Assembly: GCF_009689585.1 (NCBI RefSeq)
Contig: NZ_AP018694.1
Location: forward strand, 2,805,001 to 2,869,000
Length of the DNA stretch: 64,000 nt
Reading direction: 5' to 3'
Source of the DNA: Aquipluma nitroreducens
GTDB taxonomy: Bacteria > Bacteroidota > Bacteroidia > Bacteroidales > Prolixibacteraceae
Part shown: positions 8,923 to 63,647 of the stretch, one piece after another
Numbering within the stretch: the stretch's first letter is position 1
How the letters are laid out: each line of letters begins with the position of its first letter
The notes under the pieces: generated by a model
Seen by the model: the letters and a program-made list of their open reading frames with translations, nothing else
The model's database searches: none
What the model was told of the DNA's origin: nothing
Position numbers and translations under genes: made by a program

Positions 8923-9801
8923 TTAAAAGAACATTGGAAAATAATTAAACAGTTGCTTTCCCTTTGTAACGGTGGGTAAATCCTGATGGTCGGTCAAGGC
9001 ATTCGTCTCAATTTGTTGGTCAATTTCTTCCAGGACAGACCAACAATCCCAAACACCTTCGGCCACAAAATCGGCTCCGGCATTCAATAATTTACGACCG
9101 GCAACAGCAATCTTTTCGGCCAGCCAAACAGGGTCGGCAGCATTGGCCTCGGCGAGCGACAATCCCAACTCGTTTCCCGATTTGGTTAACCCGATTGTCC
9201 ACACTCCTGCATTCTTTCCTTCCTGAATGTCGGCAACAGTATCGCCGATTTTCACTATTTGGCCGAGCGGATAAACATCCATAATCTCGCAATTCAGGTA
9301 AATCATCCACGGAGCCGGGCGGCCAGCAGAAACTTCCGAAGAACTAATAATTGCATCGGGCAATAAACCTGCTGCGGTGGTTATTGGAATAATAGAATTC
9401 ATCATTTCTTCGACATAACCGGTAGTTGTACCCACTTTGATGCCTTGCTTTTTGAGTGAATTAATCAACTCAATAGCTCCGGGAATTGGGTCGCAATAGT
9501 CTTTTACAATCTCAGCTAAGGCTGGCTCCAATTCAGAATAAATACTTTCTACATCTGCTTCTGATGGAATCCGGCCATATTCGGCCAGCCATTGTTTTTG
9601 TACCGTATCAAACCCGAAAAGCGCCCGAACGTGATCTTTCTTTGCCAATCCCATCGGAGTGCGTGCTTCTTCCATGGTGATAATAATTTCTCTTTTACGG
9701 AAAACTTCTATAAACACTTGCGTTGGCGCTATGCAACCGTAGTCGATGATCGTTCCAGCCCAGTCGAAAATGACTGCTTTAATGTTTTTGAGTTGATTCA
9801 T
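8923..9801 (-). CDS. phnX: Phosphonoacetaldehyde hydrolase (phosphonatase) PhnX
   Basis: HAD-superfamily enzyme that cleaves the C-P bond of phosphonoacetaldehyde to acetaldehyde and phosphate. The start at 9801 gives MNQLKNIKAVIFDWAGT, with nucleophile Asp13 in the DWAGT motif. An upstream in-frame ATG at 9915 is rejected because the added 38 residues lie over a palindromic repeat. MGLAKKDHVRALF holds the Schiff-base lysine (K54). KIGDTVADIQEGKNAGVWTIGL is the HAD motif III/IV region. The protein is 292 residues, slightly longer than usual, with an extra C-terminal stretch of unclear role. It heads the phosphonate gene run. Confidence 0.92.
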   Translation of the reverse strand: MNQLKNIKAVIFDWAGTIIDYGCIAPTQVFIEVFRKREIIITMEEARTPMGLAKKDHVRALFGFDTVQKQWLAEYGRIPSEADVESIYSELEPALAEIVKDYCDPIPGAIELINSLKKQGIKVGTTTGYVEEMMNSIIPITTAAGLLPDAIISSSEVSAGRPAPWMIYLNCEIMDVYPLGQIVKIGDTVADIQEGKNAGVWTIGLTKSGNELGLSLAEANAADPVWLAEKIAVAGRKLLNAGADFVAEGVWDCWSVLEEIDQQIETNALTDHQDLPTVTKGKQLFNYFPMFF

Positions 9802-9858
9802 ATTGCTGATCAATGTTTTATGTGAATGTTCGGTAACTTCCCTAATTGTTTTAATCGG

Positions 9859-10042
9859 AGGGGCTTTGCCCCTTGCCCCAATTCCTTTTTTGTCTTGACA
9901 CAAAAAAGGAATCAAAAAAAGTCAAGGCTGTGCCCGCTTCGCTCGAAAAACTAACGTTCGACAGCTAAAATCTTTTAAACTCCCCCGATTACTCGGGGTC
10001 AAACAGAAAAGATTTTTTAACGCCGCCTTCACTTGTTTTTCG
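9859..10042. repeat. Nested palindromic intergenic element upstream of phnX
   Basis: The 404-base gap between phnX and susD holds several inverted repeats. AGGGGC/GCCCCT lies at 9859-9873. A perfect 13-bp repeat lies at 9881-9893 and 9900-9912. A nested set follows: CGAAAAAC (9944-9951) with GTTTTTCG (10035-10042), AAAATCTTTT (9968-9977) with AAAAGATTTT (10007-10016), and CCCCGA (9983-9988) with TCGGGG (9993-9998). The arrangement looks like a dispersed extragenic palindromic element rather than a gene. Confidence 0.7.
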
Positions 10043-10143
10043 GCTCACCGGCCAAGGCCTGTCGCCACCAACAAGAACCATTTCCATTTTAGGTACAATA
10101 CCGGACATTCATTATGTTTTAAATGAATTTTCTTACCATAAAA

Positions 10144-10167
10144 CCCTGACAGCAAAAGCTGTCAGGG
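10144..10167 (-). terminator. Intrinsic terminator of the susC-susD run
   Basis: CCCTGACAGC, AAAA loop, GCTGTCAGGG form a perfect 10-bp stem 39 bases after the susD stop. On the minus strand it is followed by TTTTATGG. It should end transcription before phnX, making the susCD and phnX gene runs separate units. Confidence 0.8.
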
Positions 10168-10205
10168 AAATCAAACAGAGGGAATGTATATATGAACGAT
10201 GCTGT

Positions 10206-11696
10206 TTATTTGATGATCCACATTTCCGAATTAATGTCGTCGGTTGCAGCGCCAAACTGACTAGTCAGAGCTGCATTGTAATTGGTGGCGTTAGTTGTTC
10301 GTTCAGAACTTGGATACTGCCAGCGTTTGGCAATACGTCCGCTGTTCGCAGTTCCGGGGCCAGTAAGGAAAGTTGGCACACCTGTACGGCGGTAATTGTT
10401 GTAAGCTTCCCATCCCGAATTCTGGAAGAAGGCCAGATATTTCTGAGTTAAAATCTGCGTAAGTGCTGAGGCAGAGGTGCTGCTTAATTTGACCGAAGGC
10501 TGCGCATAATAGGCAGTCCATTTTGTTTCGACATCGGTTACCCCATGGAAAGTCCACGAAGCTTTTATGCCTTTGGTGTAATAATCTTCGGCATTTCCGG
10601 CAACCCAACCACGGTTAATCGCTTCGGCAATGCTAAAGCACACTTCGGAATAACCAATTTGAATACAAGGTTCACCAAGGTAGGAGCTGTAATAATGGCT
10701 TTTACTGATTGGCGAATATTCTCCGTTCAGCATTTTAGTCGACATGTCGTCCAAACTTTCGCCCGAACTTGCTCCAACATAAGCTTCGTAATCGGATGCT
10801 GTAAGCCCGGCTTTAATTTTGGCAGGGGCCGGATCGGCAACAATGAAAGTACGTGGGTCTTTCAACGATACCAGCGTATTCAGGTAAGTGGCCGCCATGT
10901 TGTTACGGGTAGCTGTCTGTCCGTAATTATCCTGATTCAGTGGGTATTTTGTGTCGGAACTGTTGTAAGTGAACTTCAGGTTATCGTCCAAGGAAGTCAT
11001 TACTGGGTATTTGGTTGGGTTATTCACCACATTGGCAAACTGTGCTTTGATATTCAGATCGGTATCCGACTCTTTTTTGCTCAGTGCTATCAGTACGCGA
11101 AGTTTGTAGCTGTTCACCACTTTTTGCCATTTCTTCAGGTCGTTGCCAAGCATAAAATCACCTGTAAGAGATTGGTCGTTACTGTTAATGAGGGTCTGAA
11201 GTTCAGTATTCGATTCTTCGAGCCAGGTTAATGCCTGTTTAAATACCGCTTTTTGCGTATCGTATTTTGGAGCTGTATTTTCAAGACTTTTCAACGCATC
11301 GGTCATTGGTACATCACCGAGCCTCAAACTCATATCGACAAAAAAGTAGGCTTTAAAAAATTTACCGATGGCGGAATATGGATTGTTATCGGCTAAACCA
11401 ACACGCGTTGCTTCCGAAATCATCTGGTTCACATTCTTCAACTGATTGTAATTGAAGTCGGTTGTTGTCCAGTCGTATTCCTGATCGTCGTAATAAGCGT
11501 AGTTGCTGCAGTGAAATTGACCCCATCTCATTTGGTCGCTCCATGGCGAGTAATACAGTTTGTAAAGTACTCTGGTAAATACCAGTGATGGAGGTACATC
11601 ACCCGGACGGTTCGGATCTTTTTCCAGATCCTCGAATTTTTGACATGACGATAACCCTACTGCGAATACCATCATGAATATGATTAATTTTTTCAT
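10206..11696 (-). CDS. SusD/RagB family outer-membrane lipoprotein
   Basis: Surface lipoprotein that acts as the lid of a SusC-type TonB-dependent transporter. The 496-residue protein has a lipoprotein signal peptide with lipobox LSSC near residue 18. It then shows a SusD-like helical core with TPR-type segments (for example NQMISEATRVGLADNNPYSAIGKFFKAY). The C-terminus GRIAKRWQYPSSERTTNATNY is typical of the SusD_RagB-like group. It follows susC by 37 bases and precedes a strong terminator. The location between phosphonate genes and a PbfA-like lyase suggests a phosphorus-containing ligand, but no residue proves this. Confidence 0.9.
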   Translation of the reverse strand: MKKLIIFMMVFAVGLSSCQKFEDLEKDPNRPGDVPPSLVFTRVLYKLYYSPWSDQMRWGQFHCSNYAYYDDQEYDWTTTDFNYNQLKNVNQMISEATRVGLADNNPYSAIGKFFKAYFFVDMSLRLGDVPMTDALKSLENTAPKYDTQKAVFKQALTWLEESNTELQTLINSNDQSLTGDFMLGNDLKKWQKVVNSYKLRVLIALSKKESDTDLNIKAQFANVVNNPTKYPVMTSLDDNLKFTYNSSDTKYPLNQDNYGQTATRNNMAATYLNTLVSLKDPRTFIVADPAPAKIKAGLTASDYEAYVGASSGESLDDMSTKMLNGEYSPISKSHYYSSYLGEPCIQIGYSEVCFSIAEAINRGWVAGNAEDYYTKGIKASWTFHGVTDVETKWTAYYAQPSVKLSSTSASALTQILTQKYLAFFQNSGWEAYNNYRRTGVPTFLTGPGTANSGRIAKRWQYPSSERTTNATNYNAALTSQFGAATDDINSEMWIIK

Positions 11697-55230: not shown

Positions 55231-57639
55231 ATGCTTAAACATTACATCAAAATAGCATTCCGGAATCTATTCAGGCAAAAACGACTTGCTCTGATTAATA
55301 TATTGGGACTATCTATTGGACTCGCTTGTTTCAGCTTGTTTTCGCTGTACACCGTAAATGAGTTTAGTTACGACCGTTTTAACGCCAAGGCCTCGCGCAT
55401 TTACCGTGTTTACGACTGGTGGTCCTTCAGCGACCGCCAGGGAAGCGAGCCATCATCGGCCACTCCGCTCGGACCAGCCATGAAGCAGGACTTATCAGGC
55501 GTAGAAGATTTTGTAAGAATTAAACCTACAGGCGATAAGCTCATTCGTATCGGGAATCGAATCCATACTATCGACGTATCGTTTGCCGATCCACAGTTGT
55601 TCTCGATTTTTACATTTCCTCTCATTACAGGAAATACTGCCACAGCTTTGGAATCACCCCGAAGCATAGTACTCACCCGTACTAAAGCCATCCAACTATT
55701 TGGCAGAACCGATGTAGTAGGAAGAACCGTTGAAATCAAAAACGGCGATCAGTTCGAACCCTTTGTTATTGGGGCAGTGGCCGAAAACATTCCGGTTAAC
55801 TCAAGTATTCAATTCGATATTCTTGGTAATTTCGATTACATCCTGAACACTGAATATGGTAGAGCCAGCCTTAGCGACTGGAATATGACCATTGGTATTT
55901 CGGTGTACGTACTGCTACACGAAAACAGTAACCTGATGAACGACCCGGCTCGTATATCCGCTTTCAGGCACAACTATTTTCCGGGTGAAACTGAGCGAAA
56001 TAAAGATGGCAGTCCAACCAACGGGTTTGGTTTTCAGTCATTAACTGATGTTCATACCGGCGTCAACATTGATAAATGGGGAGCCTCCGATCCGAAGAAC
56101 AGCTGGATACTGATGAGCATAGCTATTGGCATATTAATCATTGCATGCATCAATTTTATCACCCTGGCTATCAGCCGGTCAGCCGGTCGATCAAAAGAAG
56201 TCGGAATCAGGAAAGTTACAGGCGGACACCGGTATCAGCTCGTTTACCAATTTCTATCCGAATCGTTATTGCTTAGTCTGATTTCCGCAGTTATTGGATT
56301 AATTCTGGCTTATACCCTGTTACCGTTTTTCAACGAACTTTCAGGGCGATCATTGTCGTTTTCATTCAGTCAATATCCTGAAATGATTGGTATTCTTTCA
56401 GGAGTAGTGTTGTTGGTTGGATTAATTTCAGGCATTTATCCGGCATTGGCAATTTCCGGATTTCAGCCTTCTGAAGTGCTGAAAAGCAAAGTCCGGTTCT
56501 CGGGATCTAATTTTTTCACCAAATCGCTAGTCTCTTTTCAGTTTGTACTTTCCATCGGGCTAATCATCTCAATGATTGTATTTATGCGCCAACTCGGATT
56601 TATGCGATCGAAAGACCTTGGCTTTGATAAAGAAAATGTAGTAGCCATAAACACTCAAGACCTTGATTTGCAAAAAGATTATCCGGTTTTCAAACAGTTG
56701 TTGAGATCGGAAAGCAGCATATTGGGAGTTACAGGTTCGTACATCGGGCTTGGAAATAACGAAGGCCAGATGGGTCGGAGGTACAAATTCGATACTAAGG
56801 AAGAAACCGTTATTGAATATCCGATTGATGCTGAATTTCTGGATGTTTTGGGTATGCAACTTGTCGCAGGCAGAACATTTGATCCAGCAATAGCTTCCGA
56901 TGCAACAATGTCAGTGGTGGTGAATGAGGCGCTTGTTCACGATGTACTGGGGATCACTCCGGAAGAAGCTCTGGGCAAAGAATTCACTAACAGCAAAGGA
57001 CCCGACCGAAAAGTGATAATAGGGGTTAGCCGGAATTTTAATTTTGAAGATTTAACCCGAACGGTTCGGGCACAAATGTTTTTGTGTCCGGCTAACTTAA
57101 AGCCAAACACTCTCTTTGTGCGTATTAATCCCGGAGATCCGTCGAAAGCACTAACGACAATAGCAGCTGCATGGAAAAACATATCGCCCGAATTGCCAAT
57201 TAAATATAGTTTTCTGGATCAGAAATTTGACGATTTCTACAAGGAAGAAACGCGTTGGAGCAGAATAGTTAGTTGGGCCGGAGCTATATGTATCTTTCTG
57301 GCTTGCATGGGTTTGGTAGGTCTAACCTCTTTGGCTGTAATTAACCGATCGACAGAAATCGGTATCCGAAAAGTAAATGGAGCAAAAATCTCCGAAATAT
57401 TAACCTTGCTCAACCGCGATTTTGTTCGTTGGGTAGCTATTGCTTTTGTTATTGCCACACCCGTTGCATACTACTCCATGAATAAATGGCTCGAAAGTTT
57501 TGCCTACAAAACCACGCTTAGCTGGTGGATTTTTGCTTTAGCTGGGTTCCTGACATTGGGAATTTCACTACTTACGGTTAGTTGGCAAAGCTGGAAAGCA
57601 GCAACGAGGAATCCGGTGGAGGCGTTGCGATATGAATAA
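55231..57639 (+). CDS. FtsX/MacB-type ABC permease 6
   Basis: An 802-residue paired-FtsX permease. First block near 290 (RSAGRSKEVGIRKVTGGHRYQ), second near 683 (NRSTEIGIRKVNGAKISEI). It ends WLESFAYKTTLSWWIF and WQSWKAATRNPVEALRYE. The last 58 bases through the stop region (57581-57638) recur exactly at 58110-58167, on the other side of the DUF559 cassette that starts at the stop codon. Confidence 0.93.
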   Translation: MLKHYIKIAFRNLFRQKRLALINILGLSIGLACFSLFSLYTVNEFSYDRFNAKASRIYRVYDWWSFSDRQGSEPSSATPLGPAMKQDLSGVEDFVRIKPTGDKLIRIGNRIHTIDVSFADPQLFSIFTFPLITGNTATALESPRSIVLTRTKAIQLFGRTDVVGRTVEIKNGDQFEPFVIGAVAENIPVNSSIQFDILGNFDYILNTEYGRASLSDWNMTIGISVYVLLHENSNLMNDPARISAFRHNYFPGETERNKDGSPTNGFGFQSLTDVHTGVNIDKWGASDPKNSWILMSIAIGILIIACINFITLAISRSAGRSKEVGIRKVTGGHRYQLVYQFLSESLLLSLISAVIGLILAYTLLPFFNELSGRSLSFSFSQYPEMIGILSGVVLLVGLISGIYPALAISGFQPSEVLKSKVRFSGSNFFTKSLVSFQFVLSIGLIISMIVFMRQLGFMRSKDLGFDKENVVAINTQDLDLQKDYPVFKQLLRSESSILGVTGSYIGLGNNEGQMGRRYKFDTKEETVIEYPIDAEFLDVLGMQLVAGRTFDPAIASDATMSVVVNEALVHDVLGITPEEALGKEFTNSKGPDRKVIIGVSRNFNFEDLTRTVRAQMFLCPANLKPNTLFVRINPGDPSKALTTIAAAWKNISPELPIKYSFLDQKFDDFYKEETRWSRIVSWAGAICIFLACMGLVGLTSLAVINRSTEIGIRKVNGAKISEILTLLNRDFVRWVAIAFVIATPVAYYSMNKWLESFAYKTTLSWWIFALAGFLTLGISLLTVSWQSWKAATRNPVEALRYE

Positions 57640-58109
57640 ATTTTACCCCAAACCCCTAAAGGGGCTTAACGAAGAAGCAACATGGGTATAAGAGATCAAG
57701 TTTCGATGTTCTACGATGCAAAACCGCACATTTTTGAAAAAGCAAAGATGTTGAGGGAAAATATGACAGAAGCAGAACAAAAACTTTGGGAGCATCTAAA
57801 GGGTAAGAAAATGATGGGATTGCGCTTCAGGCCTCAGCATCCTATTGATATTTTCATTGCGGACTTTTATTGTCATCCTCTAAAATTAGTAATTGAGATT
57901 GACGGTGGAATACATAAATCTCAAGATCAAAAAGAATATGATATTGGGCGAGAAGCAGAATTGGAACGATGGGGAATTAACGTAATTCGGTTTACGAACG
58001 AAGAAGTAGAAAACAGCATTGAACATGTTAAGAATGAAATCGAACAAGAATGTGCAAGGCATAGATCGGAGCTTCAAAGTCCCCTTCAGGGGATCTAGGG
58101 GTGTAATTT
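57639..58109 (+). mobile_element. DUF559 nuclease cassette flanked by 58-bp direct repeats
   Basis: A 471-base unit with imperfect inverted repeats: left arm 57639-57670, right arm 58076-58109, both with an ACCCC...CCCCT.AAGGGG core. It encloses one nuclease gene and no transposase. It is flanked by perfect 58-base direct repeats (57581-57638 and 58110-58167) that are the 3' end of permease 6. The repeats begin two bases before the Trp codon of WQSWK. Confidence 0.75.
57682..58098 (+). CDS. DUF559 endonuclease-like protein
   Basis: A 138-residue protein of the DUF559/VSR-like endonuclease family. RFRPQHPIDIFIADFYC and LVIEIDGGIHKSQ show the PD-(D/E)xK-type arrangement, and ERWGINVIRFTNEEV is the conserved C-terminal part. 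Its stop codon lies within the right inverted repeat (SPLQGI then TAG). It should be able to cut or nick DNA; its natural target is not known. It is the only gene of the cassette. Confidence 0.9.
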   Translation: MGIRDQVSMFYDAKPHIFEKAKMLRENMTEAEQKLWEHLKGKKMMGLRFRPQHPIDIFIADFYCHPLKLVIEIDGGIHKSQDQKEYDIGREAELERWGINVIRFTNEEVENSIEHVKNEIEQECARHRSELQSPLQGI

Positions 58110-58111
58110 GT

Positions 58112-58168
58112 TGGCAAAGCTGGAAAGCAGCAACGAGGAATCCGGTGGAGGCGTTGCGATATGAATAG
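58112..58168 (+). pseudogene. Orphan permease 3' end after the DUF559 cassette
   Basis: Nineteen codons read WQSWKAATRNPVEALRYE and TAG, with no start or permease body. With the two bases before it, the fragment matches the last 58 bases of permease 6 exactly up to the final base of the stop. Its TAG overlaps the first base of the damaged GxxExxY cassette, the same arrangement as permease 4 with the intact one. It probably is the original end of permease 6, displaced by the cassette. Confidence 0.85.
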
Positions 58169-58490
58169 TCTTGAACTATGATTTGATTGATTATTTGAAT
58201 ACTATGATTTAAAAAATGATAGAAAACAACTATACCAATGATAAATATCCGCTTTCTGATCTGACAGGTAAGGTTATCAAGTGTGCCATTGAGGTTCATA
58301 AACATCTTGGTAACGGTTTTCAGGAAGTCATTTATCAACGAGCGCTGGCTATTGAATTTGGTCTTCAGAATATTCCTTTCGAAAGAGAATTCGAAATGCC
58401 TGATAAATTTTGGCAGCAAAAGCTTAGAATTTAAACGTGTAATGAAAAAATCATATTCTATCATCAAATCAGACCAATCAAAGTTCAGAC
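58168..58490 (+). mobile_element. Damaged GxxExxY cassette
   Basis: GTCTTGAACTATGATT (58168-58183) and AATCAAAGTTCAGAC (58476-58490) are inverted repeats differing by one base and one indel. They resemble the ends of the cassette at 50837-51309. The single gene inside is truncated and frameshifted. Confidence 0.65.
58216..58456 (+). pseudogene. GxxExxY pseudogene with internal deletion
   Basis: The first 61 or so codons match the family, including GFQEVIY. At about 58398 the frame is lost: the original frame ends at 58434 as WQQKLRI, while the shifted frame continues as LINFGSKSLEFKRVMKK, the normal C-terminus. Comparison with the intact gene at 50863 shows that about 57 codons, including the D...ExK nuclease motif, are missing. 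The product would be inactive. Confidence 0.85.
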
Positions 58491-58518
58491 AACAGCTACA
58501 CAACAAAAAACAGAAAAT

Positions 58519-60909
58519 ATGAGCATTAAAAACAACCTGTTGGTCAGTTTCAGGCACCTGAAAGCCGACAAAACAAACACACTGATCAACCTTACAGGAC
58601 TGATCTTTGGGCTGGGAATCGTAGCGGTAATTCTGGTATTTGTGCTGAACGAACTGGGCTACAATCGTTCTTTTGCCAACCGTAACCGGATTTATCGTAT
58701 CATCAACCAAAATGAAAACGATAATAACCGCTGGGCAAATACTCCTTTTGTGGCGGGCGAAACCGTGGCCAATCAATTTGCTGAAGTGGAAGCATACGTG
58801 CATCAATACAACATCGGCAACATGGACGTAAAAAGTGGAGCCGAATTCGTTGAAGAAAAGAACATGCTGTGTACAGAAAGCTCCTTTTTTGATGTTTTTG
58901 GGGTGAATTTAATCCAGGGAACGCTTTCTGGATTTGATCAGTCTATGGGAAAAATTGTGCTGGGAGAAACAATCGCCCGAAAATATTTTGGCACTGAAAA
59001 TCCGGTTGGTAAAGTATTCACTTTACGCAGCAAGGGAGTGGAAAGTCCGATGGAGGTAGTGGCTGTTTTCAAGGATCTGCCACTGAATTCCACGATTAAG
59101 GCCTCGATGATTGCCAATGTCGATTTTGGCCTGGAAAACTTGTCACAAAATATCATTTCAGTCGGAGAAAAGCCAAGTATTCAGGAAATGAAAGACTCGT
59201 GGAATGGCGGAGTATTTTTCACCAACTATCTTCTCCTGAAAAAAGGGACTTCGGTTGCTGCGTTCGAAACAAAACTGAACCAATTAGGTATTGCACAGTC
59301 GGATAAAGACAATAAACTGAATTTCTCGCTCCAGTCGCTAAACGATATTTATTTCGGATCAGATAAAATTGTGGACAACAATCGCGGCGACAAAGGCAAC
59401 CAATCCATGTTGTTTATTTTGGCTTCGGTAGGATTTCTAATCCTGATCGTCGCCTGCATCAACTACCTCAACCTGACCTCGGCACAGGCATTGACCCAGA
59501 CTAAAGCGCTGGCCGTGCGAAAAGTGTGCGGTGCGCCACGCTTCGACCTGATCCGGCAAATGGTGCAGGAATCGGTTCTGGTGTCGCTGGTTGCCTTGCC
59601 TTTTGCCTTGCTGGCTGGGCATTTCGCATTGCCGTACATCAGTCAGTTGCTCGGAAAATCATACACACTCACCCTTACAAACCAATTTCTGGTCAGTTTG
59701 CTTATCCTGATCCTGATTACTGTGGCAACCGGAGCTTTATCGGGTTTTATGGTAGCTGTTAAAATCACATCGTTTAGGCTGGTCGAAACACTTAAAGGAC
59801 AACATACTTCCGCCGGAAACAAACACAATCTTCGTAAAGCGATGGTGGTTTTTCAGATTTCGGTATTTATTGTGCTGATTGCCGTGATGGCTTTGGTGCA
59901 AAAGCAGGTCCATTACGCTTTCAATAAAGACCTTGGAATCGAAAAAGAAGGTTTGCTGCGGGTTTCGCTGGGCGACCACGATTACAAACTGTTTTGTCAG
60001 GAAATCAGGAAAAATCCGAATGTGGTGCAGGTGAGCGGGGCATTATGGATTCCGCCCCACAAAGGGAAAATGTATATGTCGATCCCACGGGTTGACAATA
60101 AAAGCGAAATGGTTAAAGTAAACGGCCTTTTTGTTGACTATGGGTTTGCCCAGACTATGGGCATGAAATTCGTGATGGGTGCCGACTTCGACGAAGAAAA
60201 GAACAACTCGGGTGTTTTGGTAAACGAGGCGGCGGTTAAAGCCCTCGGCCTGAAAGAAATCGTTGGCGAACAAACCGCTTTTGGACCGGTGGTTGGCGTG
60301 GTGAAAGATTTTAATATGTACTCGATTCACGAAGCGATTACGCCCATGCTGATTGGACTAGACCCAACCATGTGCCGCGAAATTGCCATTAAAATGCGAA
60401 CCGAAAACATGCCGGAAACCATCGAATTCCTGAAGCAAACCTGGAAATCGACCGGCGGCACTACCGCGTTCGACTTCGATTTTACAAACGACATGCTGAA
60501 CCAGATTTATGAGTCGGATATCCGTTTCTCAAAAACCATCGGGCTTTTGGCTGTTATTGCCATCCTGATTGCCAGTCTCGGTTTGTTTGGCCTATCTCTT
60601 CTGATCAGCCGGCAAAAAACCAAGGAAATTGGCATCCGGAAAGTGACCGGCGCGCGTATTGGCGAAATTGTACTTTTCCTCAACCGCGACTTTGTAATTT
60701 GGGTAAGTCTGGCTTTTGCGATTTCAACGCCCATTGCCTGGTACGCCATGCACCGCTGGCTCGAAAGCTTTGCCTACAAAACACCGCTTAGCTGGTGGAT
60801 TTTTGCCTTGGCAGGTTTGCTGGCGTTAGGAATTGCTCTGCTGACCGTGAGCTGGCAAAGCTGGAAAGCTGCAACGAGAAACCCTGTGGAAGCGCTGCGG
60901 TATGAATAA
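58519..60909 (+). CDS. FtsX/MacB-type ABC permease 7
   Basis: A 796-residue paired-FtsX permease. First block near 296 (AQALTQTKALAVRKVCGAPRFD; ALAVRK replaces the usual EIGVRK), second near 672 (SRQKTKEIGIRKVTGARIGEI). It ends WLESFAYKTPLSWWIF and WQSWKAATRNPVEALRYE. ATG at 58519 follows an ACAGAAAATATG leader similar to that before permease 3. Confidence 0.92.
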   Translation: MSIKNNLLVSFRHLKADKTNTLINLTGLIFGLGIVAVILVFVLNELGYNRSFANRNRIYRIINQNENDNNRWANTPFVAGETVANQFAEVEAYVHQYNIGNMDVKSGAEFVEEKNMLCTESSFFDVFGVNLIQGTLSGFDQSMGKIVLGETIARKYFGTENPVGKVFTLRSKGVESPMEVVAVFKDLPLNSTIKASMIANVDFGLENLSQNIISVGEKPSIQEMKDSWNGGVFFTNYLLLKKGTSVAAFETKLNQLGIAQSDKDNKLNFSLQSLNDIYFGSDKIVDNNRGDKGNQSMLFILASVGFLILIVACINYLNLTSAQALTQTKALAVRKVCGAPRFDLIRQMVQESVLVSLVALPFALLAGHFALPYISQLLGKSYTLTLTNQFLVSLLILILITVATGALSGFMVAVKITSFRLVETLKGQHTSAGNKHNLRKAMVVFQISVFIVLIAVMALVQKQVHYAFNKDLGIEKEGLLRVSLGDHDYKLFCQEIRKNPNVVQVSGALWIPPHKGKMYMSIPRVDNKSEMVKVNGLFVDYGFAQTMGMKFVMGADFDEEKNNSGVLVNEAAVKALGLKEIVGEQTAFGPVVGVVKDFNMYSIHEAITPMLIGLDPTMCREIAIKMRTENMPETIEFLKQTWKSTGGTTAFDFDFTNDMLNQIYESDIRFSKTIGLLAVIAILIASLGLFGLSLLISRQKTKEIGIRKVTGARIGEIVLFLNRDFVIWVSLAFAISTPIAWYAMHRWLESFAYKTPLSWWIFALAGLLALGIALLTVSWQSWKAATRNPVEALRYE

Positions 60910-60983: not shown

Positions 60984-63365
60984 ATGATGAGTTACCAAAT
61001 TCGATTAATATTCAGAAATTTCAGAAGAAACCGCAGTTCATTTTTTATAAACCTGATTGGTTTAGCCACTGGTTTTGCCTGTGCGATCCTGATTTTTTTG
61101 TGGGTAGCCGACGAAATGAGTGTGGATAAATTTCATGAAACCGATAAGCAACTGTACCAGGTTTTGGAAAATCAGGCCATGTCGCAGGGTATTTTAACTC
61201 AAGAATGGACCCCGGATTTGCTAGCACGGAATCTGGCATCCGAATTTCCCGAAATAAAATACGCTGTAGCTGTTTCTCCGGCAAGTATGTTCGGGAATTT
61301 TACGGTATCGGCCGACGATAATAACCTGGTAAAAGCAGCCGGGCAGTTTGCCGAACCCAATTTTTTCAAGGCTTTTTCATTCAAACTGTTACAAGGGAAT
61401 CCGGAACAGGTACTTAGTGATGATAATGCTGTGGTTATTTCCCGGAAGTTAGCTTTGTCGCTGTTTAAGACTACAGAAAGTGTGATCGGAAAAACATTTC
61501 AGTGGCAGATACTTAACATCAAAAGAAATGCGGTAGTCTCCGGAATTTTTGAAGGAACTCCTGTTAATTCAACCGCCCAGTTCGATTTTGTATTGGCCTA
61601 TGAAGCCTGGATTAATTTATCGGAAACTGTTGGACGGAAAATCCATTGGGGAAACCATGCGCCACAAACTTTTCTGGTGTTAAACGAAGGCGCCGATGTA
61701 AAAAAGCTGAACAGCGAAATTTCAGGTTATATCAAAACCAAACAAACCGGTTCAAACGTTAGCCTGTTTGCAGTTCCCTACTCACATCGGTATTTACATG
61801 CCAGTTACACCAATGGAGTTGAATCAGGAGGACGTATTGAATACGTCAGGTTATTTTCGTTAATCGCCATTTTTATCTTACTCATTGCCGGAATCAATTT
61901 CATCAACCTCGCTACAGCCAAAGCCTCCAAACGATTCAGGGAAATTGGCGTTCGGAAGGTTGTCGGCAGCGGACGAAAGGCGCTGATCGGTCAATTTACA
62001 GGCGAAGCCGTCATTCTAACATTCCTGGCAACGATTATTTCCATGCTCATGGTTTGGCTTTTCATGCCTCAGTTTAACCAGATAACCGGCAAGCAACTTC
62101 ATCTGGTATTAAACGCAAGCTTTCTTTTACCCATCGCTGGTATCTGTTTGTTAACCGGTATTTTAACCGGACTTTACCCGGCGTTTTATCTTTCAGGTTT
62201 TAATCCTTTATCTATTCTGAAAGGCAAACCCAGCCGCTCTTCCGGAGAAATATGGGCACGCAAGGGATTGGTTGTTTTTCAATTCGGAATTTCTGTTGTT
62301 CTCATTGCATCAATGATTGTTGTTTACCGGCAGGTTCAGTTTATTCACAACAAAAACCTGGGCTATCAAAAAGACCACGTCATCTATTTCGCCAAAGAAG
62401 GAAATGTGGCGCAAAAACTACCAACATTTATTACCGAAGCCCAAAAGATTTCCGGGGTTGCCAATGTATCGGATCTTTCGTCAAGCCTGGTAGGCAGTCC
62501 TTCTACAACCTATGGCATGAGTTGGGAAGGGAAAGACCCGTTGGCTAACATTAATTTCGAAGTAATGAAGGCTGACTTTAACCTGATTGAAACCCTAAAT
62601 ATTGAGTTAGCTGAAGGACGAAGTTTTTCGGATAAATTCGGCGGCGAAAACAGCAAACTAATTTTGAACCAGGCTGCGGTTGACGTAATGGGGCTTAAAA
62701 ACCCAATTGGGCAAACCGTGAATTACAATGGCCAGCAAAAGCAAGTTATTGGTGTGGTAAAAAATTTCAATTTCCAATCGCTTCACGAAAAAGTTAATCC
62801 AATGACTATCTTATACGATCCCCAAAAAACCATGACTGTGATGGTTAAACTTAAAGTCGGACAAGATCAGCAAGCCATTGCCGGGCTTAAAAATCTCTAT
62901 GCCCGGTTCAATCCTGGCTTTTCATTCGATTATCAGTTTCTGGATGTAGCCTACCAAAAATTGTACGAAGCCGAAGAGCGTGTTTCGGCCTTATCCAAAT
63001 ATTTCGCCGGAATTGGAATCCTCATATCCTGCCTTGGTTTATTCGGACTGGCTGCATACGCTTCGGAACAACGGCTGAAAGAAGTCGGCATCCGAAAAGT
63101 AAACGGCGCCCAAATCACCGAAGTTATGGTTTTGCTGAATAAAGACTTTGTAAAATGGGTAGCCCTTGCATTTATCCTTGCCACGCCCGTTGCCTGGTAT
63201 ATCATGAACCGGTGGCTCGAAAGCTTTGCCTACCGAACAACATTGAGCTGGTGGATTTTTGCCCTTGCCGGCTTGCTGGCATTGGGAATTGCGCTGTTGA
63301 CAGTTTCATATCAATCATATAAAGCGGCTATTAAAAACCCTATAGAAAGTTTGAGGTATGAATAG
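60984..63365 (+). CDS. FtsX/MacB-type ABC permease 8
   Basis: A 793-residue paired-FtsX permease. First block near 290 (ATAKASKRFREIGVRKVVGSG), second near 670 (SEQRLKEVGIRKVNGAQITEV). It ends WLESFAYRTTLSWWIF but its last residues are YQSYKAAIKNPIESLRYE instead of WQSWKAATRNPVEALRYE. A standard tail lies orphaned after the damaged DUF559 cassette that follows, so the present 3' end may be a replacement. Confidence 0.92.
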   Translation: MMSYQIRLIFRNFRRNRSSFFINLIGLATGFACAILIFLWVADEMSVDKFHETDKQLYQVLENQAMSQGILTQEWTPDLLARNLASEFPEIKYAVAVSPASMFGNFTVSADDNNLVKAAGQFAEPNFFKAFSFKLLQGNPEQVLSDDNAVVISRKLALSLFKTTESVIGKTFQWQILNIKRNAVVSGIFEGTPVNSTAQFDFVLAYEAWINLSETVGRKIHWGNHAPQTFLVLNEGADVKKLNSEISGYIKTKQTGSNVSLFAVPYSHRYLHASYTNGVESGGRIEYVRLFSLIAIFILLIAGINFINLATAKASKRFREIGVRKVVGSGRKALIGQFTGEAVILTFLATIISMLMVWLFMPQFNQITGKQLHLVLNASFLLPIAGICLLTGILTGLYPAFYLSGFNPLSILKGKPSRSSGEIWARKGLVVFQFGISVVLIASMIVVYRQVQFIHNKNLGYQKDHVIYFAKEGNVAQKLPTFITEAQKISGVANVSDLSSSLVGSPSTTYGMSWEGKDPLANINFEVMKADFNLIETLNIELAEGRSFSDKFGGENSKLILNQAAVDVMGLKNPIGQTVNYNGQQKQVIGVVKNFNFQSLHEKVNPMTILYDPQKTMTVMVKLKVGQDQQAIAGLKNLYARFNPGFSFDYQFLDVAYQKLYEAEERVSALSKYFAGIGILISCLGLFGLAAYASEQRLKEVGIRKVNGAQITEVMVLLNKDFVKWVALAFILATPVAWYIMNRWLESFAYRTTLSWWIFALAGLLALGIALLTVSYQSYKAAIKNPIESLRYE

Positions 63366-63588
63366 TTTTCACCCCAAACCCCTGAAGGGGCTTAACATCG
63401 TGCAAGCATGAGCATAAGTGATAAAATATCGATGTTCTACTAGAATATTGGGGAATAAAAGTCATCCAGTTTACAAATGAAGAAGTTGAAAAAAACATCA
63501 CTCATATTCAAAATGAAATCGAACGAATTTGTTCCGAACGAAGATCAGCGCTTCAAAGTCCCCTTCAGGGGATTTAGGGGTGAAACTT
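63365..63588 (+). mobile_element. Damaged DUF559 cassette
   Basis: Inverted arms 63365-63396 and 63555-63588 (TTTCACCCC...CCCCTGAAGGGG) bound a deleted DUF559 gene. The left end begins at the G of the permease 8 TAG stop. The right end abuts an orphan permease tail at the same codon as in the intact cassette. Confidence 0.7.
63408..63577 (+). pseudogene. DUF559 pseudogene with internal deletion
   Basis: Eleven codons (MSISDKISMFY) match the start of the intact gene at 57682. After an in-frame TAG, the sequence resumes with EYWGIKVIQFTNEEVEKNI to SPLQGI and a stop. About 83 codons containing the nuclease core are missing. The product would be inactive. Confidence 0.88.
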
Positions 63589-63590
63589 GC

Positions 63591-63647
63591 TGGCAAAGCT
63601 GGAAGGCGGCAACGAAAAACCCGGTAGAGGCGCTGAAGTATGAGTAG
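63591..63647 (+). pseudogene. Orphan permease 3' end after the damaged DUF559 cassette
   Basis: Nineteen codons read WQSWKAATKNPVEALKYE and TAG with no permease body. The fragment begins at the same Trp codon as the orphan tail at 58112, though its sequence differs, so the two insertions share one junction but are separate events. Confidence 0.85.

Follow-up and report, generated by a model that had tools for sequence, protein, structure and literature searches.

Mobile open reading frames (mORFs) of fungal mitochondria place an endonuclease open reading frame (ORF) at the 3' end of a gene, where the carboxy-terminus is duplicated and hybrid genes arise; its hosts include atp6 in Allomyces and atp6, atp9, cox2 and nad3 in Glomus (PMC3630166). 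The REP-RAYT systems (repetitive extragenic palindromes, REP, and REP-associated tyrosine transposases, RAYT) link palindromes to Y1 transposases (PMC6006769). The DUF559 protein VsrA of Caulobacter is needed for the SOS response of cells without the methyltransferase ScmA, and so VsrA probably cuts DNA; it is described as mismatch-repair-like and linked with a cytosine methyltransferase rather than with mobility (PMC12907096). In this work we analyzed a window of the genome of Aquipluma nitroreducens (NZ_AP018694.1, positions 2,805,001 to 2,869,000; the window is this whole stretch of 64,000 nucleotides, and its features are numbered from its first letter and lie on the forward strand). In it, a cassette with palindromic ends and a nuclease gene of the same DUF559 family as VsrA lies between two identical copies of the 3' end, here called the tail, of a permease gene.

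We hold, with barely more than even confidence, that the unit is a mobile nuclease cassette that spreads among tandem permeases by recombination or homing at their conserved 3' end. This reading rests on the recurrence of the arrangement at permeases of several genera, on orthologues with one tail, on mosaic or foreign tails at some loci, on near-identical cassettes in Maribellus, on purifying selection and on a fold match to a homing endonuclease. It suggests that such cassettes are mobile DNA of a sort that has drawn little attention and that inserts at the ends of genes while leaving them intact.

In the proposed mechanism, the DUF559 gene between REP-like palindromic ends would constitute the mobile unit. 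When flanked by tails, the cassette would match the tail of a cassette-free permease on either side. If such a recipient tail were broken or nicked, repair from a cassette-bearing copy would give a recipient gene whose 3' end is complete ahead of the cassette, with a second tail following the cassette. A recombinase would not be needed if the work were done by homologous recombination between the many permease tails. The nuclease itself may nick or cut the tail and so drive the recombination, as in homing, and the palindromes may be its binding or processing sites. It is a candidate for the natural source of the break because of its fold, of the selection acting on it and of the role described for VsrA in a DNA-damage response (PMC12907096).

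The arrangement is like that of the mORFs in that an endonuclease ORF stands at a gene 3' end together with two copies of that end. In the mORFs, the inserted end replaces the end of the upstream gene and the native end lies downstream (PMC3630166); for the cassette, the identity of the native tail is less clear. In contrast with the mORFs, whose endonucleases are LAGLIDADG or GIY-YIG proteins, the cassette is bacterial, its nuclease has a predicted PD-(D/E)XK/Vsr-like fold, it has palindromic ends and gene-less relatives, and it targets tandem paralogous permeases.

The cassette at permease 6 and its nuclease

MacB/FtsX-type permeases stand in a tandem array in this region, and most of them have a similar C-terminus. 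Permease 6, the host of the cassette, is encoded at 55231-57639 (802 aa, with MacB_PCD and FtsX domains), and its ORF is intact through the stop codon. A sequence-only reading of this stretch had noted that the closing 58 bases of the gene, WQSWKAATRNPVEALRYE (57581-57638), are identical to 58110-58167, and the repeat search agrees with these coordinates; if one mismatch is allowed the repeat reaches 61 nt, and the start-to-start spacing is 529. This pair is by far the longest direct repeat listed in 56500-59300, the runner-up being of 23 nt at 74%. The tail copies start two bases 5' of the Trp codon of WQSWK and end with the TA of the stop codon. Because many array permeases end in a similar tail, the repeat reflects homology and not chance. 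The remaining tails that the search located in the window differ from that at 57581-57638 at 8 or more of 58 positions; a permease just outside the window (ending near genome position 2,871,924) shows only 3 differences from the left tail in 56, and therefore the tail is not unique. Two rows of this last comparison, P6R and P8R of the window, were displaced by one base and were left out of account.

The tails enclose a cassette of 471 bp (57639-58109), delimited by sequence and repeat comparison, which fits the earlier description of a unit with inverted ends and one nuclease gene that leaves permease 6 whole, the ends being imperfect. The left palindromic end, ACCCCAAACCCCTAAAGGGGCTT, occupies 57645-57667 and has similar ends in relatives; the right one, AAGTCCCCTTCAGGGGATCTAGGGGT, was located by motif search at 58077-58102. 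The DUF559 gene (57682-58098, 138 aa) is intact, its last codons lie within the right-hand palindrome, and it is the sole gene of the cassette, the ORF list containing no transposase there. Compared with its counterpart in genome G007 (genomes and loci are given as G and L numbers where they must be told apart), the gene (57682-58095) is a mosaic, with codons 106-138 95% identical and codons 1-60 72%. An Rfam scan of the window at the gathering threshold gave no match, and no other intron search was made. A role of the cassette ends as terminators was rejected, since no terminator-like site was found in 57400-58600. Folded as single strands, the four ends scored weakly better than shuffles (z -0.6, -1.4, -0.6 and -2.0).

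The nuclease matches the PF04480 profile with 113.9 bits, against a curated cut-off of 20.6, and D61, E72, D74 and H78 are invariant in 30 sequences. A structure model from 30 sequences reached a predicted local distance difference test score (pLDDT) of 85; an earlier model, built on 7 sequences, was of poor quality (pLDDT 57) and was set aside. The best fold match in the PDB is the DUF559 protein 3hrl (E 8e-8, template modelling score, TM-score, 0.87 on the target), which is also matched in sequence (E 2.6e-19). The second is the catalytic domain of the homing endonuclease I-Bth0305I (3r3p; E 1.5e-3, probability 1.00), with a sequence identity of only 22-24%. I-Bth0305I belongs to the EDxHD (Vsr-like) class and stems from a phage intron. 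The model thus predicts a PD-(D/E)XK/Vsr-like fold for the window nuclease. The ratio of nonsynonymous to synonymous substitution rates (dN/dS) is 0.10-0.21 in six of the seven computable pairs, one further pair being saturated, and the nuclease is under purifying selection.

Recurrence at permeases and the origin of the tails

A scan of named genomes yielded 33 loci of this DUF559 subfamily, all assigned to Bacteroidota from their record titles. When a permease tail was searched for within 500 bp upstream, it was found at 11 of the 33, and a recognisable second tail at 8 of these 11. The order tail-cassette-tail is present in G007, G009, G014 and G108, and also at permeases of Maribellus maritimus, Maribellus CM-23, M. 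luteus and one metagenome-assembled genome. An exact pattern for the junction of right end and tail occurred in 2 of 140 family genomes, and a protein search found more. With a 70-base tail as query, most matches in each of six genomes fell into one or a few clusters.

Movement between permeases is suggested by pairs of similar cassettes with dissimilar hosts. Maribellus CM-23 and M. luteus have a 95.6% identical cassette at different permeases (MIGYN and MRNHS, respectively), and two cassettes of G050 are 94.3% identical, while their adjoining permeases are 55% identical over 900 bp.

We classified 130 permeases of 15 genomes: 32 have an element, 88 are plain, and ten were left out (at least 900 bp downstream, no element found, no next ORF of 250 aa; an orphan tail in 0 of 10). 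An orphan tail follows 13 of the 32 element-bearing permeases and 3 of the 88 plain ones at the protein level (Fisher 1.3e-6), and 21 of 32 versus 15 of 88 at the DNA level (8e-7). The possibility raised beforehand, that empty sites would reveal a second tail older than the cassette, found no example in the alleles compared; the three plain permeases with an orphan tail are the reservation to this. They include the G012 orthologue of permease 6, which lacks DUF559 and yet has two tails around a different palindromic element.

As for a mobile ORF of the mORF kind, alleles without the element have one tail in the cases compared, the G012 orthologue of permease 6 being the counter-case. The G009 orthologues of permeases 6 and 8 have a single tail and no DUF559 cassette; the MIGYN-type permease is plain with one tail in M. 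luteus and in a 78.5% identical relative in G065; and the MSIKNN permease stands without a GxxExxY element in the window and with one in G014. The bodies of the MIGYN permeases of CM-23 and M. luteus are only 64% identical, yet their tail and downstream flank are close. In CM-23 the last bases of the downstream tail (GAAGCTCTCCG) and the flank agree with the cassette-free M. luteus allele, the upstream tail has different last bases (GAAGCGTTGCG), and the first part is common to both tails. Permease 8 (60984-63365; ORF list and orthologue comparison) has an unusual tail, YQSYKAAIKNPIESLRYE, beside a second cassette; the identity of this upstream tail with the cassette-free orthologue is 0.53 over 60 bp, compared with 0.86 in the preceding 300 bp. 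At the permease G009_3250 the corresponding values are 0.57 and 0.73. By these comparisons, the upstream tail of permease 8 and of G009_3250 is foreign to the cassette-free orthologue.

The sequence-only reading had offered two explanations, one being an element that targets and restores a gene 3' end, the other a target duplication of great length. The former gained support: cassettes recur at permease stops in several genera, the cassette-free orthologues compared have one tail, and some loci combine a new-looking upstream tail with a downstream tail that looks native. The second, in which nicks about 58 nt apart at insertion would duplicate the permease 3' end, came out weaker, and we judge it improbable. 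It would account for the tail pairs of the window (58 of 58 identical), G007 (55 of 56) and Maribellus CM-23 (55 of 58), and for long flank repeats at DUF559 loci away from permeases, namely L003, L049, L065 and L154 (Ancylomarina euxinus), where three units occur and a flank of ~70 bp is repeated ahead of the first and second and altered ahead of the third. The expectation that flanks match in other copies thus holds for these three tail pairs and fails at other loci, where the tails have diverged. A duplication of one target fits less well with the unlike tails of permease 8, G009_3250 and others and with the MIGYN tails of Maribellus CM-23, which end differently, one of them with the last bases of the target; the start of the second tail varies, and the cassette has DUF559 as its only gene and no transposase. 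The same features, no transposase gene and no fixed duplication, with tails that vary in their start and are often unlike each other, separate the cassette from a classical transposon.

Several results weigh against a nuclease cassette that spreads by recombination or homing. No upstream permease tail was found at 22 of the 33 subfamily loci, and therefore the permease tail is not the only home of the cassette. The sample of 15 genomes is non-random, 14 having been chosen for the presence of the cassette and one, G012, on account of its permease 6. When both tails of eight loci were locally scored alike against the cassette-free orthologue, the downstream tail was nearer to it in three, equal within 0.02 in two and further in three, and therefore a replaced upstream tail has support at some loci but is no general rule. 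Among 41 ortholog pairs, the tail identity relative to its surroundings fell by a mean of -0.047 in filled/empty pairs (n 14) and changed by +0.003 in empty/empty pairs (n 21), a drop that is not significant (Mann-Whitney one-sided p 0.061). The evidence on the original tail is mixed. In the fold search, 3hrl alone reached E <0.001, and the G050 pair has a dN/dS of 0.73. At the MIRFK locus of M. luteus, the flank of another permease contains the second tail, a sign of deletion or rearrangement.

M. luteus also bears on another alternative, according to which the deletion of a neighbouring permease left the second tail behind and the cassette does no more than mark the deletion site. The flank of the second tail after the GxxExxY cassette of M. 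luteus is found after another permease in CM-23, with three permeases fewer between, which speaks for this alternative. As a general account we consider it very improbable: second tails start near the WQSW codons and not elsewhere in the longer conserved region, the Maribellus MIGYN permeases come near to a pair with the same neighbours with and without cassette, and in the window and G007 the best match of the second tail, among the tails compared, is its own partner. Past 15726 on the reverse strand of L194 (M. luteus), a permease tail and a second tail enclose a full GxxExxY gene that has inverted ends of its own, and three permeases of the related genome are missing there.

Passive recombination is a serious rival because different elements use the same site. 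According to it, palindromic elements inserted after permease stops in the distant past; the cassette together with its tail has since been spread, duplicated and made uniform by RecA-dependent recombination or by gene conversion between the similar tails, the nuclease being uninvolved. The elements found at permease stops are diverse (two DUF559 subfamilies, GxxExxY genes and gene-less units), with a second tail or a remnant in examples of each; at the MRNHS permease in Maribellus CM-23, a different DUF559 subfamily with different palindromes occupies the same place as the cassette in M. luteus. Some tails are mosaic, and the tail copies look specific to arrays because long flanking repeats accompany 0 of 23 GxxExxY cassettes outside arrays and none of 30 GxxExxY loci outside arrays has a permease tail. 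Together with the 3 of 7 other DUF559 cassettes that have them, these counts speak against long flanking repeats as a general trait of cassettes, an idea that was dropped. We nevertheless regard purely passive shuffling as less likely than not, in view of the purifying selection on the nuclease and of the close company that the DUF559 subfamily keeps with the palindromes. In the cases examined, moreover, second tails start within ~25 bp of one point, though the conservation between permeases extends further upstream; this weighs against it because remnants of random recombination should have more scattered starts. The two DUF559 subfamilies at the MRNHS permease, which is 97.7% identical in the two genomes, lie on the reverse strand of L192 near 11297 (CM-23) and of L194 near 18681 (M. 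luteus).

Palindromes and cassettes away from permeases

The strict REP-like palindrome CCCCTNNAGGGG occurs at most 300 bp from the gene in 30 of the 33 subfamily loci, on both sides in 20 of them, and its density falls from 2.52 per kb near the gene to 0.18 per kb at distances above 1 kb. In the genome of A. nitroreducens the right-end motif (AAGTCCCCTTCAGGGGATCTAGGGGT, at most 1 mismatch) was found 32 times and a control pattern 0 times; several of the 30 motif loci inspected are short gene-less units. At the genome level, the motif is present in 27/27 genomes with a subfamily match of E <=1.2e-50 and in 38/113 others, this cut having been chosen post hoc and the comparison carrying no correction for relatedness.

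A Y1 transposase was considered as partner of the palindromes and ruled out, since none of the 14 Y1 loci examined (RAYT candidates, including all 6 matches in the own genome) has the strict palindrome within 1.5 kb. Among other DUF559 loci the CCCCTNNAGGGG palindrome appears in 1 of 19, and inverted repeats of other sequence were found at 7 of 12 stand-alone genes of this kind. The inverted-repeat test is strict, calling 11 of 23 testable loci, many of them known cassettes. In a phylum-wide sample it called 24 of 53 stand-alone DUF559 genes (3 of 56 genes were skipped) versus 0 of 34 control ORFs. Plasmid DUF559 genes passed, with a shuffle control only, in 3 of 5 cases from Cyanobacteriota, 1 of 1 from Deinococcota and 0 of 1 from Pseudomonadota. 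For GxxExxY genes in the genus, inverted repeats were detected at 22 of 26 (4 of 30 loci had no gene call) and at 2 of 24 control ORFs. In loci L217-L246, long inverted repeats of many sequence types frame GxxExxY genes, for example of the AACCACAGA...TCTGTGGTT and AAACGCAAAG types.

The cassette shares with the REPIN-RAYT and REP-TnpAREP systems a small nuclease-type gene flanked by palindromes, with gene-less copies dispersed in the genome, and palindrome families seem to differ between nuclease clades (PMC6006769). It is unlike REPIN-RAYT in that its palindrome is missing from all 14 Y1 HUH loci, in that the GTAG tag is absent from both ends of the window cassette, and in that the gene lies inside the palindromic unit. 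We propose tentatively, and with clearly less than even confidence, that DUF559 and GxxExxY proteins are dedicated partners of large REP-like palindrome families in Bacteroidota (DUF559 perhaps also in Cyanobacteriota and Deinococcota), a non-HUH counterpart of REPIN-RAYT, some units of which home into conserved gene 3' ends, swap ends and reshuffle paralogous arrays. In the titles and abstract starts of open-licence papers on REPIN/RAYT in Bacteroidetes, on extragenic palindromes and endonucleases, and on palindromes and mobile nuclease genes, the arrangement was not described.

Stand-alone genes of the DUF559 and GxxExxY families are frequent in the Bacteroidota genomes searched, and the literature searched seldom discusses them: DUF559 occurs in 14 of its papers, in no title or abstract, and GxxExxY in 2. 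If such genes belong to palindrome-ended mobile units, many orphan genes and many dispersed GC-rich palindromes would share one explanation. The 3'-end arrangement gives the mitochondrial mobile ORFs, with their hybrid genes, a direct bacterial counterpart open to testing, and it suggests a way for tandem permease arrays to retain a similar C-terminus and exchange members.

Several of the 22 subfamily loci without a tail lie in arrays of gene-less palindrome units. In Mangrovibacterium marinum (L072, reverse strand, 9199-11090), six palindrome units are separated by recurring ~80-base spacers, with the DUF559 gene in the first; the gene preceding them is, from its N-terminal sequence, presumably RadA-like. 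As for carriage by phages or plasmids, only distant relatives with less than 60% identity were found (5 phage and 39 plasmid records).

Other elements in and beside the window

Directly after the second tail at permease 6 lies a truncated GxxExxY (PF13366) cassette (58168-58490), with left end GTCTTGAACTATGATT and right end AATCAAAGTTCAGAC; its ORF, of the PDDEXK_3 family by profile search, is at 58216-58434 and encodes 72 aa. A closely similar, intact cassette is located 3' of the MSIKNN permease in G014, which is the 97% identical orthologue of the cassette-free permease MSIKNN that follows in the window (58519-60909). At another permease of the array, both in the window (50837 onward) and in G014 (L071 after 1957), the permease is followed by a GxxExxY gene; its motif starts 94 nt past the permease stop, and a second tail was not found there.

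The second cassette (63366-63588), which the sequence-only reading missed, has the same ends as the first and lies between non-identical permease tails, the whole arrangement spanning 63308-63646. Tail searches placed the upstream tail, at the end of permease 8, at 63308-63365 and the downstream tail, WQSWKAATKNPVEALKYE, at 63589-63646, and motif searches placed the left and right palindromic ends at 63371-63393 and 63556-63581. Sequence comparison showed its DUF559 ORF (63408-63574) to be an internally deleted remnant that retains the start codon region followed by residues 91-138. Just past the window, near genome position 2869483 (L077:6484), an orphan tail is preceded by a decayed right end, GGGGGATTAGGAGT; together they are probably the remains of a third cassette.

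Elsewhere in the same genome, a second DUF559 gene stands alone at L003 (3206450-3206779), surrounded by a GC-rich palindrome that differs from that of the cassette. A dispersed repeat of this genome (L006, L007, L017, L018, L019, L023 and L024) contains the cassette palindromes within near-identical flanks of 17-18 bp, of the ACTTTCAAATTGTAAGTT type, and several copies have GGCTGTATCAAAAGT-like sequence outside these flanks; it is perhaps a miniature inverted-repeat transposable element (MITE) that has swallowed a palindrome unit.

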